From Acidimicrobiales bacterium (lineage in GTDB: Bacteria; Actinomycetota; Acidimicrobiia; Acidimicrobiales; RAAP-2), in assembly GCA_017883135.1 (NCBI GenBank), contig JADGOE010000005.1, positions 1 through 64,000 of the forward strand: 64,000 nucleotides of DNA. The letters run 5' to 3'. Both the position numbers and the translations under genes were made by a program. The notes beneath the pieces are model-generated. The model did not search any database and was not told the DNA's origin. It was given only the letters and a program-made list of their open reading frames with translations. Below, one piece after another: positions 1,934 to 7,773 of the stretch (the first letter of the stretch is position 1; each line of letters starts with the position of its first letter).

Positions 1934-4900
1934 TCAGGGGGTCGTCGCGGTCGTTCCCCCGCTCGAAGCGGCGTCGCCTTCGGGCAACCCGGTCGACTCA
2001 CCGTTCTCGTCCCACTGCCCGATCGAGGCGAGGAACTGGTCGGTCTCCCGCTGAGCGGCGACCATCCGCTTCTCCGCGCCGGTGGCCAGCAGCCTGCCCA
2101 GCACCGGGATCTCCCAGAGTGATTCGGCTCGCAGGATGGCCATCACCACCGGCACCAGGTGCTCGGCGGTGTCGAAGACCACATAGCGGGGCAGCCACTC
2201 GGGCTCGTACTTGGCATTGAACCGCCAGAGCGACTCGATCTGGGCGAAGTTCGACAACCGCTTCAAGAACCAGCGTTCGGCCCGCTGCACTGTGCCGTCG
2301 CCCCTGTCGCCCGACAAGGTCGAGCGCAGGGCCGCGAAGTTGAGGCTGAGGCCCTCGTAGCCACCGGACCGGAGGTGTTCGATGGTCGAGCACAGGGCGA
2401 AGTCCAACAGCCCGTTGGGGTGGTCGCCCGGGTCCCGCCGCATCAGGTCGAGGGAGAACCCATTGATGCCGGGGGCCGGTACGAACTGGCACATGGCCAC
2501 CGCCGCACCGTCGGGCGCGCGGACCACCGCCATGAGTAGCCCGGTGTCCCTCGGATCGAACACCCGACCGAGCATCATCGAGAATCCTCGTTCGTACTCG
2601 CCCTGCCGACTGAGGCGCATCAGCGCGGTGAGCTCATTGGAGAGGGAGGGGTCGATGTTGGCCGGATCGTGGAAGGTGGCGGTGTACCCGTACTTCTTGA
2701 TCCTGTTGTGGGCCTGGCGCAGCCCCTTCATCTCGCCACCGGCCAGGGTGAAGGACTGGACCTTCACCACCGCCTCGTCCCCGAGGTAGATGTTGTGCAT
2801 TCCCGAGTCGCGGTAGATGGGCAGCCACTCCTCGCCGGAGCCCATCACCGCGGTGATCCAGCCGTGGCTGTCGGCAAACTGGCGGAAGGCCCCCCAGACC
2901 TGGCGGCGTTCGTTGCGGGGACCGATCGGGTCAGGGGAGATCAGGCAGATCCCTCCGTAGACGGCGTAGGCGACCAGGCTGTCGCGATGGAAGAACCACC
3001 TCTTGTCCGACCGGAGGGCGAAGTAGTCGAGGGTCGAGGAGCCGTGGCGCCGCACGATGTCACGGGCCCTGAATTCCGCGGCCCGGCCCGAGCTCAACCT
3101 TCGGTCGACCACCGGCCGGGTGAGCAGGAAGAGCGTCACGGCCACCAGCGACAGTCCGATGGTCAAGAGGGCCGGCGAAAGGAAGCGGTCGGCCCGGTGG
3201 GGGAGCGGCACCGTCCGGATGCCGACGAATCGTTCGGAAACGGCCCACAGCGCGGTCCACCACGGGATGTTGGTGTGATGTAGGCGGCCGATGTGGGTGA
3301 ACAGTTCGATGGAGGCGGCCGCGACGACGGTGATGCCGGCCACTCCGATCCCCAGCGCCAGCAGGGCCGACCGGAGCGACGACCAGTCCGATGCGGATTG
3401 GAACTCTTTCCGATTGGTGACCAGCAGCACCAGGACGGCGGCCGCGACCAGTGACTCCTCGATGTCGGCCCCGGCGACCATGTGCAGGAAGATGGTGCCC
3501 GCCAACAGGACTACGGCCACCCGCCAGGCCCGCCGCTGGCCGCGCAGGATGCCGCGACCCAGGGCGATCAGTGCCAGTCCGGCCACGGCGATGAGTGCCC
3601 CGGCCGCCACACTGGCACGCAGCGGCAGGTACTGGGCTACCACATGCAGCCGCCCGCGCAGTGGTGGGGTGATGGCATCGAGCAGGTCGATGATGCCGGC
3701 CAGCAGGATCGCTGCCGCCGCCAGGCGACGCACCCGTCTGGTCCGGCGATGGGCCTGGCGCAGGTCGGTTGCCGGGGGCCACGAGTCGCCCATCGGGTAC
3801 GAGGCGACGAGCGTCGGATGCAGGGTCCCGGCGCTGCGCCCCCTGGTGACCACCCGTTCGAGGTAGCTCGGGGAGGGCAGGTCGGTGTGGGCCAACAGCA
3901 TCCGGACGTGCAGTTCGGCACCCGTCTCGAGCTCGACCCAGCTCACTCGCTGGCTGTGCAGGAAGACCGGCGGGAGCCCCAACCTGCCGCGGTGCTCCTC
4001 CACCACCTCTGCAGTGGCACCCACGTTGGCGTAGAAGCCCACACCCAGGTTGGTCAGCTCCGACTGGAAGGTCGCCGCGGTGATCAGGCCCGCGTAGCCG
4101 TGGGCAACCACCCGCCGGGCGTCACCCCGGGCGGTGTCGTTGGCCCCCGCCTCGGACTGCACCGTCTCCAAGGCGCCGCCGCCGAGGATGGACCACATGC
4201 GGCGGCTGAGCAGGCCGAGCACCAGCGCCATGACCACCAGCACCACCAGGGCCACCAGCGAGGCGACCACGAGCTGGTCGTTGAGGTCGGCCTGGTGGGC
4301 GTGGCGAATCGCCCGGCCCGGCAGTCCGGACCCGACGTGCCCGAGCACCCACGGGGTCGCGGCCACCCGCAGCAACATGGCGACCACGAACGGCACCAGG
4401 AGCCACCAGGCATAGCGACCGAAGCGGCGGTACAGCGTTCGAGAGACCACGAATCGTGACAGGGCCGACGGGTCGCTCAGGCGGTTGAGGCCGGCCAACC
4501 AGGGGGCATCCTCGGTGGACTGTGCAGCCAGGATCCGCCACCCCTTGCCGGCCGATGACTGGCCGATGATGCCCGGTTTGGCGTCGGCTGCAGGGTTGAA
4601 CTCCGTCTCGGGCCCGCTGCAGCCAGCTGCATAGGCGTGCTCGCCCGGCTCCACCCGCACCACCCGCTCGCCGGTGAGGGTGTGGAGGTGGAGGTCCACC
4701 GGCCCGTGTTGTTCCACTCCCATCGCAGCGACGGCGGCGATGTTGTCGGGGTCGGTGTCGTACCCCGGCTCGTGGGTCCCGGTCTGGCGGATGACCCGAC
4801 GCTCGTCGACGAGGAGGAAGCGGGCCAGCGCCTGTGCGAGTGCCGGGTGGGCCTCGATCGAACGGCGCGCCTCGGCCGCGGGCGTCTCCGTCCCGGTGAG

Positions 4901-5155
4901 GTCGAACAGGTTGCCGGCGATGATCAGGATGCCCGGACCGTCCCAGGTGTCGAGGGCCCGGGCGAGTTCGGCGGTGACCGCGGATGTCGACGGCGTGGCA
5001 CGGGGTGTGAGCAGCAGGTCACTGACCACCATCACCCGCCGTCCCAGCGGCACTTCGACCGGGGTGCCACCGGGCTCCGGCGTCAGCGAGGCGGCGGCGT
5101 TCGGCATCAGCCCGTCGGTCCCCACCCCTCCCAGCGAATGTGTGGTCGTGGTCAC
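1934..5155 (-). CDS. MprF/LysX-type aminoacyl-phosphatidylglycerol synthase fused to a degenerate metallophosphoesterase domain
   Basis: A 1,073-residue membrane protein. Residues about 40-215 look like a calcineurin-type phosphoesterase fold (VMVVSDLL, IIAGNLFDL, TGTHE), but the usual DxH, GDxxD and GNHD motifs read DLL, GNxxD and GTHE. Two helices follow (about 245-320), then a soluble loop. A multi-helix block covers about 475-690. The C-terminal 350 residues match the LPG-synthase/DUF2156 GNAT-like domain (LDYFALRSDKRWFF, YGGICLISPDPIGP), which in MprF and LysX transfers an amino acid from aminoacyl-tRNA to phosphatidylglycerol. GTG 5155 is chosen; ATG 5107 is the alternative. The frame runs open upstream to 6451 but there it overlaps acsA, so that part is rejected. 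The substrate amino acid cannot be told. Confidence 0.8.
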   Translation of the reverse strand: MTTTTHSLGGVGTDGLMPNAAASLTPEPGGTPVEVPLGRRVMVVSDLLLTPRATPSTSAVTAELARALDTWDGPGILIIAGNLFDLTGTETPAAEARRSIEAHPALAQALARFLLVDERRVIRQTGTHEPGYDTDPDNIAAVAAMGVEQHGPVDLHLHTLTGERVVRVEPGEHAYAAGCSGPETEFNPAADAKPGIIGQSSAGKGWRILAAQSTEDAPWLAGLNRLSDPSALSRFVVSRTLYRRFGRYAWWLLVPFVVAMLLRVAATPWVLGHVGSGLPGRAIRHAHQADLNDQLVVASLVALVVLVVMALVLGLLSRRMWSILGGGALETVQSEAGANDTARGDARRVVAHGYAGLITAATFQSELTNLGVGFYANVGATAEVVEEHRGRLGLPPVFLHSQRVSWVELETGAELHVRMLLAHTDLPSPSYLERVVTRGRSAGTLHPTLVASYPMGDSWPPATDLRQAHRRTRRVRRLAAAAILLAGIIDLLDAITPPLRGRLHVVAQYLPLRASVAAGALIAVAGLALIALGRGILRGQRRAWRVAVVLLAGTIFLHMVAGADIEESLVAAAVLVLLVTNRKEFQSASDWSSLRSALLALGIGVAGITVVAAASIELFTHIGRLHHTNIPWWTALWAVSERFVGIRTVPLPHRADRFLSPALLTIGLSLVAVTLFLLTRPVVDRRLSSGRAAEFRARDIVRRHGSSTLDYFALRSDKRWFFHRDSLVAYAVYGGICLISPDPIGPRNERRQVWGAFRQFADSHGWITAVMGSGEEWLPIYRDSGMHNIYLGDEAVVKVQSFTLAGGEMKGLRQAHNRIKKYGYTATFHDPANIDPSLSNELTALMRLSRQGEYERGFSMMLGRVFDPRDTGLLMAVVRAPDGAAVAMCQFVPAPGINGFSLDLMRRDPGDHPNGLLDFALCSTIEHLRSGGYEGLSLNFAALRSTLSGDRGDGTVQRAERWFLKRLSNFAQIESLWRFNAKYEPEWLPRYVVFDTAEHLVPVVMAILRAESLWEIPVLGRLLATGAEKRMVAAQRETDQFLASIGQWDENGESTGLPEGDAASSGGTTATTP

Positions 5156-5248: not shown

Positions 5249-7279
5249 ATGCCTGACGACGCAGCACACCAACCCGACGGTGGGGCCCCGACCTCGTCCG
5301 AACCCACCATCGAGGACTACTTGTCCGAGGACCGGGTGTTCCCCCCCTCCGCGGAGTTCCGGAGGCAGGCGGTGGTCTCGGACCCGGCCGTCTACCAGCA
5401 GGCAGCTGACGAGTGGCCCGACTTCTGGGCGCAGCAGGCCGGCGCCCTCGACTGGTTCCGCACCTGGGACACCGTGCTCGAGTGGGACCTGCCGTTCGCC
5501 CGGTGGTTCGACGGTGGCACGCTCAACGTCTCCTACAACTGCCTCGACCGCCATGTGGCCGCCGGACGGGGCGACAAGGTAGCGTTCCACTGGGAGGGTG
5601 AGCCGGGCGACACCCGGACCATCACCTACGGCCAGCTGTTGACCGACGTGTCGAGGTTCGCCAACGTGCTGCGCGGCCTGGGTGTCGGTCGTGGCGACCG
5701 GGTGGCGATCTACATGCCGATGATCCCGGAGCTGACCGTGGCCATGTTGGCCTGCACCCGCATCGGAGCGGTCCACTCCGTGGTGTTCGGCGGGTTCTCG
5801 TCCGAGGCACTGCGCGACAGGATCCTCGATGCCGAGGCGCGGGTGGTGCTCACCGCAGACGGAGGGTGGCGACGAGGCGCCCTGGTCGGGTTGAAGGCCA
5901 GCGTGGATGTGGCGGTATCGGAGTCGCCGTGTGTGGACCATGTGGTGGTGGTCCGTCGGGTCGGTGACATCGCCGGGCTCACCATGACCGAGGGACGCGA
6001 CCACTGGTGGCACGAGTTGCTGAGCGGCGACGACAGTGCCGCAGGCGGTGCGCCGTCCGACCAGTGCGAGCCGGAGCACATGGCGGCCGAGGACCTGCTG
6101 TTCATCCTCTACACCTCGGGCACCACCGCAGCGCCCAAGGGCATCATGCACACCACCGGCGGTTACCTGACCCAGGTGGCCTACACCCACCGGGTGGTCT
6201 TCGACCTCCATCCCGAACGCGACGTCTACTGGTGTGCAGCCGACATCGGGTGGGTCACCGGCCACAGCTACATCGTCTACGGGCCCTTGGCGAACGGTGC
6301 CACCTCGGTCATGTACGAGGGGACGCCCGACTTCCCCGATCGTGACCGCTGGTGGTCGATCATCGAGCGCTACGGGGTGACCATCCTCTACACCGCGCCG
6401 ACCGCCATCCGGACGTTCATGAAGTGGGGGACCACCTACCCGGAACGCCACGACCTGACCTCACTGCGGGTCCTCGGCTCGGTCGGTGAGCCGATCAACC
6501 CCGAGGCCTGGATGTGGTACTCCACCCATATCGGTGGCGGGAGCTGCCCGGTGGTGGACACCTGGTGGCAGACGGAGACCGGCGCCATCATGATCGCCCC
6601 ACTGCCCGGGATCACTGCGACCAAGCCGGGGTCGGCCACGTTCCCCGTGCCGGGTATCGGCGTGGAACTGGTGGACGAGGAGGGCATCCGGGTTGAGCGG
6701 GGTGGGGGCTACCTCACCCTGACCACGCCGTGGCCCGCGATGCTCCGGGGCATCTACGGCGACCCCGAGCGCTACATGGAGACCTACTGGACCCGGTTCG
6801 CCGGCCGGTACTTCGCCGGTGACGGGGCCAAGCTCGACGACGACGGGTACCTGTGGCTGCTCGGCCGGGTCGATGACGTGATGAACGTGTCGGGCCACCG
6901 GATCTCCACCACCGAAGTGGAGTCGGCCCTCGTGGACCACTACCTGGTCGCCGAGTCCGCGGTGGTCGGGGCCGTCGACGCCACCACCGGGCAGGCCATC
7001 GTGGCGTTCGTCACCCTGGTGGCCGACGCCGGGGCACCGAGCGACGACCGGGGCCAAGAGCTCAGGGCCCACGTGGCCGCAAAGATCGGCCCCATCGCCC
7101 GGCCGAGGACGGTGGTGTTCACCGACGAGCTCCCGAAGACCCGTAGTGGGAAGATCATGCGCAGGCTCTTGCGCGACGTGGCCGAGGGCCGGATGCTCGG
7201 GGACACCACCACGCTCGCCGATCCGGCGGTGGTCGAGGAGATCCGGCGGCTTGCGGCGAGCTCGCCGACCGAAGAGTGA
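5249..7279 (+). CDS. acsA: Acetyl-CoA synthetase (AMP-forming)
   Basis: A 676-residue ANL-family ligase converting acetate, ATP and CoA to acetyl-CoA via acetyl-AMP in the cytosol. Visible are the P-loop-like [11 protein letters not shown], the [11 protein letters not shown] adenylate signature, the tryptophan-rich [16 protein letters not shown] characteristic of acetate-specific enzymes, and near the C-terminus [12 protein letters not shown] with the Lys normally controlled by reversible acetylation. Length fits Acs (about 650). ATG 5249 follows an AGGGG motif. ATG 5234, 15 nt upstream and in frame, lacks one and is the alternative. The next gene overlaps its stop codon by 4 nt. Confidence 0.92.
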
Positions 7280-7773
7280 GCCGGGTGACCGAACCGGCCA
7301 ACTGGGCATGGAACGGACCTGCCGTGGAGACGCCGGGCGAGGCAGTGGTGTTCGACGTGGACGGGGTGCTCTCGGACGCAGTCGGCCGTCAGCACTTCCT
7401 CGAGAGCGGGCGCCGCGACTGGGACCGGTTCTTCGACGCCTGCGGTGACGACCCGGTCATCGAGGAGCTGGCCAGGGTCCTCGAGCTCCTCGACTCGCGC
7501 CTACAGGTGATCCTGCTGACCGGCCGGCCGATGCGGGTCCAGCCGCAGACCTTGGCCTGGCTCCAACGGTACGGCCTGCGGTGGGACCTGTTGGTCATGC
7601 GGTCGCGGGGGGACTATGCCCAGGTGACCCGGTTCAAGCGGGACACCGTCGAGGATCTGCGGTCGCACGGGTTCGACCTGCGGCTGGCCTTCGAGGACGA
7701 CCCCGACAACTTCGCGATGTTCCACTCCGAGGGCATCCCCTGCGTGTACATCCATTCGGGGTACTACGAGTAG
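7276..7773 (+). CDS. HAD-superfamily phosphatase, PNK3P-like
   Basis: A 165-residue cytosolic HAD hydrolase. Motif I is FDVDGVLSD (nucleophile and acid-base Asp), motif II is VILLTGRP (Thr), and motif IV is AFEDDPDN. A small cap region with [13 protein letters not shown] lies between motifs I and II. The size and TGRP motif resemble polynucleotide 3'-phosphatase-like and related small phosphatases, but the substrate is unknown. Translation starts at a GTG overlapping the acsA stop (GTGA), so it is probably coupled to acsA. Its 3' end overlaps the 3' end of lnt on the other strand by 10 nt. Confidence 0.75.

Follow-up and report, generated by a model that had tools for sequence, protein, structure and literature searches.

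We analysed a 64,000-nucleotide stretch of DNA from a member of the Acidimicrobiales (contig JADGOE010000005.1 of assembly GCA_017883135.1, positions 1 to 64,000; hereafter the window) and focus here on the gene at 1934-5155. By its architecture and predicted fold, the encoded protein is an MprF/LysX-type aminoacyl-lipid synthase with an N-terminal LpxH-like pseudo-metallophosphoesterase. An earlier note, made from the letters of this DNA alone, had proposed a synthase fused to a phosphoesterase domain that lacks its metal site, and this is what we find: a C-terminal PF09924 match, an N-terminal metallophosphoesterase (MPE) fold, and one of seven metal ligands. We propose, with a probability of roughly one half, that the pseudo-phosphoesterase has been retained as a membrane-anchored module that docks lipid for the synthase, where we infer both the docking role and the lipid. 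Lipid binding was, along with regulation, one of the roles that the note had considered for the domain. The parts are of known kinds, while their combination and the series of decay described below are, as far as we have seen, undescribed. The note could not place the combination in a named family, and likewise, among the matches listed for open-access PubMed Central, we found neither a name nor a recognisable description of an MPE joined to an MprF/DUF2156-type synthase. Excerpts of the literature on MprF-like and lipid enzymes describe fusions to aminoacyl-tRNA synthetases and none to phosphoesterases.

Domain architecture and predicted fold

The synthase half is identified by a match to PF09924 at residues 700-993 (E 1.3e-68; 231.7 bits against a cut-off of 27.5), the sole match to this family in the genome. 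Models that extend into the membrane part score below their cut-offs: PF16995, which describes the membrane part of LysX, matches weakly at residues 471-640, while the NCBIfam LysX and MprF models match residues 466-1044, with NF002821 (LysX) being the best sequence model. When the AlphaFold2 model of the whole protein (predicted local distance difference test score, pLDDT, 81.3; predicted template modelling score, pTM, 0.78) is compared with the MprF of R. etli (7f47), 433 residues align over 468-1015 (Z 31.1; root-mean-square deviation, rmsd, 7.2), and the structural alignment begins at residue 467-474. The GNAT structural match is to 4v36 (Z 30.6). The membrane part at residues 465-678 displays seven hydropathy peaks, two of them overlapping, and six long helices in the full-length model. 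Two residues, D903 and R906, do not vary across 51 rows; their counterparts in the P. aeruginosa enzyme (9goe chain sequence) are D765 and R768, and this pair probably matters for catalysis. By homology, the GNAT domain would move an amino acid from an aminoacyl-tRNA onto a membrane lipid on the cytosolic side; the synthase of the window protein is presumably active, and its soluble parts probably face the cytosol.

Table 1. Features of the fusion gene and of the candidate partner gene, in window coordinates
Feature	Position	Strand	Description
MPE-synthase fusion gene, whole	1934..5155	minus	open reading frame of 1073 residues, GTG start, no internal stop
MPE part 1	4628..5065	minus	residues 31-176, ligand positions 1-5
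Membrane hairpin	4187..4471	minus	residues 229-323, two helices inserted in the MPE fold
MPE part 2	3881..4138	minus	residues 340-425, ligand positions 6-7
Synthase membrane part	3122..3763	minus	residues 465-678, ~six helices; MprF and weak PF16995 alignment
Tandem GNAT synthase domain (PF09924)	2111..3085	minus	residues 691-1015
Small HAD-type hydrolase gene	7276-7773	plus	follows the acs gene directly; its PNKP phosphatase-like match has E 6e-11

The reading frame stays open upstream as far as 6451, and the extra stretch overlaps a plus-strand acs-like gene; in most cases, alignments of relatives to the window protein start at residues 1-35.

When compared to known systems, for which we draw on excerpts of the cited papers, the window protein resembles MprF in having a tandem GNAT synthase with an adjoining membrane part. 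In MprF, this membrane part is thought to position the synthase at the membrane and to assist lipid access (PMC8131360). The two differ at the N-terminus, where the window protein lacks the flippase half of MprF (no PF03706 match in it at E <= 1) and instead has the MPE fold and its hairpin. The genome has three separate PF03706 matches. Actinobacterial relatives of the LysX/AlaDAGS type, which use diacylglycerol and phosphatidylglycerol and make lysyl- and alanyl-diacylglycerol, share the six predicted membrane helices and the GNAT domain (PMC10580965). Unlike LysX, the window protein has an N-terminal MPE and no C-terminal lysyl-tRNA synthetase domain: it stops 80 residues past the PF09924 match, and NF002821 is matched to position 599 of 1102. 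The LysX2 of M. tuberculosis is another actinobacterial MprF-like protein with an unusual make-up, but its membrane helices number four and its synthase-like domain is extracytoplasmic (PMC8974105). If the counts of two and six helices hold, the synthase of the window protein would instead lie on the same side of the membrane as the MPE domain, presumably the cytosol.

Pfam and NCBIfam models return nothing phosphoesterase-like in the first 470 residues, with no PF00149 match, yet a profile built from four relatives with intact motifs, the window protein excluded, matches it with an E-value of 2.3e-62; this part is homologous in sequence to PF00149-positive relatives. The same profile has no match among PDB sequences. 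The note was right to place a phosphoesterase at the N-terminus but not in its limits of residues 1-220: the fold is a split domain (residues ~31-176 and ~340-425) interrupted by a membrane hairpin, which consists of long helices at 229-273 and 291-323 in the full-length model (hydropathy peaks at 252-270 and 295-313) and has the sequence SRxLYRR (residues 238-244) at its base.

In an AlphaFold2 model of residues 22-470 (mean pLDDT 82.6, pTM 0.81), the best structural match is LpxH (6ph9; Z 16.1, rmsd 3.7 over 195 residues, model 17-402); polymerase B-subunits, PolD DP1, YfcE and Vps29 come next. This result depends on a second structural aligner, as Foldseek alone gives no match in the PDB at E <= 1e-3, although its top rows, weak as they are, are MPE folds. 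The whole-protein model also aligns to LpxH (Z 16.4 over residues 40-425). Structure prediction, which the earlier note had named as the way to expose a missing phosphoesterase fold, therefore recovers that fold. In LpxH, the catalytic domain (residues 1-118 and 174-240) supplies the ligands Asp8, His10, Asp41, Asn79, His114, His195 and His197, while a helical insertion between His114 and His195 holds acyl chains, with lipid X in the crevice that separates the insertion from the catalytic domain (PMC5016852). The window hairpin shares the location of this insertion, between ligand positions 5 and 6, and by analogy the two may do the same job. The systems differ in that the insertion of the window protein is a membrane hairpin, six of seven ligands are lost and a synthase is fused; with 14-19% identity in the structural alignments, the modelled likeness is one of fold only.

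The motifs SDLLL, AGNLFD and TGTHEP take the place of SDLHL, AGDxFE and PGNHDG in intact relatives. These are the three alterations that the earlier note reported (as DLL, GNxxD and GTHE), having passed over two further altered motifs, VEPGEH (intact VHGNQ or EHGHQ) and AATF (intact GHTH), the latter coming after the membrane hairpin. Where an intact site has D, H, D, N, H, H and H, the window protein has D46, L48, N82, T127, P170, A361 and F363, such that six of seven ligands are replaced and only D46 is kept: L48, N82, T127 and P170 stand for H, D, N and H, and A361 and F363 occupy the places of the GHTH His pair. The domain can hardly hydrolyse anything by the MPE mechanism. The window genome (98% complete) has no PF00149 match at E <= 1e-3, whereas 14/14 control genomes have one; an active PF00149-type relative that might substitute for it was therefore not seen.

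Fusion and metal-site loss across genomes

Within the order, we surveyed 396 genomes that are at least 85% complete. PF09924 occurs in 148 of them and a match to our N-terminal alignment in 110, with 106 genomes having both matches, 42 the synthase only and 4 the MPE only (three of them weak). That both matches belong to one gene was confirmed in the fetched loci rather than in all 106 genomes, 60 new regions having been fetched from the 110 matching genomes, mostly for the better matches. The fusion is thus common in the order and not an oddity of the window genome, and fused genes occur outside the order too (G149, G234, G095). In a survey of the phylum, the intact MPE profile matches 59/396 genomes at E <= 1e-3, the weaker of these matches probably being general MPEs. 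Stand-alone MPE genes of ~450-500 residues are present in other families of actinobacteria; a scan of 10 neighbour proteins from five such loci yielded nothing pointing to a substrate.

Intact forms are found close to the window genome. Three related genomes (G024, G001 and G004, the latter two in the same genus) have a second fused gene with 31-32% identity to the N-terminal half of the window protein and the full MPE motif set: SDLHL, AGDGFE, GNHDG and VHGNQxDPYN, then (G/C)HTHEPEL past two membrane helices. The same intact MPE unit occurs with no synthase behind it in G038 (sequence L056), a single-contig genome with no PF09924 match. PF00149 is recognised in 4 members of the 25-member N-terminal alignment; among the intact relatives, it is above cut-off in L053, L054 and L056 and slightly below in L055. 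The last of these, the intact-MPE paralogue of G004, has an in-frame TAG within its synthase domain, in an assembly that is fragmented and 69% complete.

Scoring of the seven ligand positions covered 123 sequences; once L125, a duplicate of L018, is omitted, 122 distinct ones are left (107 fused and 15 stand-alone). All stand-alone MPEs keep 7/7 ligands (15/15), although these genes were found with the intact-member profile and a decayed one could escape detection. Among the fused sequences, 8/107 keep all seven, including L053, L054, L130, L145 and L098, and 99/107 keep fewer: six in 1, five in 1, four in 2, three in 9, two in 22, one in 40 and none in 24 (gaps at ligand columns count as losses in eight rows, one of which, L164, is cut by a contig end). 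Survivors vary by lineage among the 99 rows with losses, in which the first Asp is kept in 64, the sixth-position His in 34 and the last His in 1. In distant relatives, such as L049, L060, L171-L173 and L175, the MPE domain itself is eroded.

In a tree of the synthase part, inferred by a quick method from 113 rows thinned to 92, intact copies appear at three separate places. With rows lacking an MPE treated as not intact, this topology requires 15 losses if regain is disallowed, 13 if branches with support below 80 are collapsed and 4 if those below 95 are collapsed, while plain parsimony, which permits regain, gives 3 changes. The synthase-only copies L063, L064 and L065 and the contig-edge fragment L020 nest within the MPE-bearing tree, with two changes, so outright loss of the MPE domain seems to have happened too. 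In an MPE tree (45 of the 123 rows, motif columns removed), 10/11 stand-alone genes lie outside the fused rows, and the intact fused rows fall outside a 22-row group with at most 3 ligands (support 80). The exception is L056, and because this stand-alone gene sits among the fused rows, the latter do not form a single clade; a constraint keeping the fused rows together is not rejected (p-value of the approximately unbiased test, p-AU, 0.12), and L056 is possibly a fused gene that later lost its synthase half. The probable order of events is fusion first, with the metal site disappearing afterwards from many lineages.

Selection and possible roles of the dead domain

To describe selection, we took 20 rows from the genus and from nearby genera and, of their 190 pairs, used the 65 whose GNAT identity is at least 85%. 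The rates of nonsynonymous (dN) and synonymous (dS) substitution come from a simple count method, with dS fairly high and the pairs not independent. Median dN and dS are 0.234 and 0.76 for the first MPE part, 0.156 and 0.76 for the hairpin, 0.105 and 0.81 for the second MPE part, 0.194 and 0.79 for the synthase membrane part, and 0.081 and 0.70 for the GNAT domain. The structured parts of the dead domain therefore have dN/dS of about 0.13-0.31, i.e., purifying selection among close relatives, and the second MPE part (residues 344-415) shows a constraint similar to that of the GNAT domain, its dN being lower than in any other segment that precedes this domain.

We also compared conservation between 89 decayed rows (the duplicate included and 7 heavily eroded rows left out) and 10 intact or nearly intact rows, which include L056 and the six-ligand L124. 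Near the hairpin and in the second MPE part, several positions are better conserved in the decayed group: W219 in 92% of decayed rows versus 40% of intact ones, E387 in 91% versus 40% and R234 in 92% versus at most 30%. H416 is found in 84% of the decayed rows, while the commonest residue there in intact rows is E (40%). R239, Y242, E366 and E433 are shared by both. Taken together, the selection and conservation patterns are better explained by a non-catalytic role, whether old or newly gained, than by decay alone. The lipid-docking reading would account for such a role as follows. The ancestor of the N-terminal half would have been a membrane-anchored, metal-dependent phosphoesterase of LpxH-like fold, which survives as a separate actinobacterial gene; it would have joined the synthase and then lost its metal site in many lineages, and the hairpin and the conserved second MPE part would now keep either the product or an acceptor lipid, phosphatidylglycerol or diacylglycerol, close to the GNAT active site.

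Several observations weigh against this reading. The loop at residues 168-225 is fast-evolving (median dN 0.474, dS 0.97). Among genomes with a stand-alone-sized MPE frame, 17/22 have no PF09924 match, which implies that the phosphoesterase itself is independent of aminoacylation. Finally, some lineages that keep the synthase (L019, L059, L063-L065) have lost all or nearly all of the domain, which together with the 42/148 PF09924 genomes that have no MPE match indicates that it is dispensable for such a synthase.

The dead domain could alternatively make no contact with lipid and act as a scaffold, either regulatory or for binding protein or tRNA, which we regard as possible but unlikely. Vps29 and the B-subunits of DNA polymerases delta and epsilon, which share the MPE fold and reach Z about 13-15 in the structural comparison, retain this fold as an inactive scaffold with no enzymatic role, and the conserved second MPE part could serve as a binding face. 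However, these are eukaryotic scaffolds with neither an aminoacyl transferase nor a membrane hairpin, the top structural match of the window protein is a lipid enzyme, the hairpin of the window protein stands where that enzyme has its lipid-holding insertion, and no partner gene was identified, the HAD-type neighbour in Table 1 having been examined. Also possible but unlikely is the idea that the intact fused forms (L053, L054, L130, L145, L098) are two-step lipid enzymes that would dephosphorylate a membrane lipid and aminoacylate the product within one polypeptide, with phosphatidic acid to diacylglycerol or phosphatidylglycerol phosphate to phosphatidylglycerol as candidate reactions. The window protein would then descend from such an enzyme with its dead half as a lipid-delivery channel, and within the family an enzyme domain would have turned into a substrate-holding module more than once.

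We consider it improbable that the domain is a slowly decaying remnant with no present role beyond leaving the fold of the fusion unharmed. The graded loss of ligands, the erosion in distant relatives and the absence from some would agree with this, but every segment is under purifying selection in close relatives, the second MPE part has a lower dN than the synthase membrane part (0.105 versus 0.194), and W219, R234 and E387 are better conserved in decayed than in intact forms. Continued catalysis, with a rebuilt site or without metal, is very improbable: D46 and H128 remain and the SDLLL, GNLFD, GTHEP pattern is conserved in the closest relatives, but the domain lacks six of seven ligands, the two histidines of the final motif among them, and in fused rows with fewer than seven ligands the survivors differ between lineages, unlike a rebuilt site.

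Aminoacyl-lipid synthases control bacterial surface charge, and accessory parts such as the flippase and the lysyl-tRNA synthetase shape the abilities of each. The MPE domain is another such part, and because its stand-alone, fused-intact, fused-decayed and lost states are all present in living groups, they form a natural series for studying the path from enzyme domain to pseudoenzyme and the benefit that the synthase draws from it. The distribution of the fusion also predicts aminoacylated lipids in a large, mostly uncultured group of actinobacteria, for which we know of no report of such lipids.

Neighbouring genes

The HAD-type hydrolase gene was considered as a candidate for replacing the lost phosphatase in trans. 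Either it or the preceding acs gene is the divergent neighbour of 56/77 distinct fused copies that are decayed to 3 ligands or fewer and have 700 or more upstream bases available, and of 0/11 copies with at least 4 ligands, whose upstream stretches span ~0.9-5.3 kb; these counts are uncorrected for kinship. The homologue of the HAD gene adjoins many decayed fused copies even where acs does not lie between them. The homologue is, however, present in 258/396 genomes of the order, including at least nine without PF09924 (G041, G045, G047, G049, G050, G052, G053, G055 and G058), and where the fused copy of a genome is intact or nearly so (G450, G507, G563), it lies on another contig. We therefore rejected this candidate, as it is widespread regardless of the synthase and inherited gene order explains the adjacency equally well.

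On the other side of the fusion gene, the plus strand encodes two proteins. One is a membrane protein of 437 residues (592-1905) for which Pfam gives no match at E <= 1e-4; the other (89-517) is small and combines PLDc_N and SHOCT domains. In about ten of the relatives that were compared, homologues of both lie close to the synthase gene.

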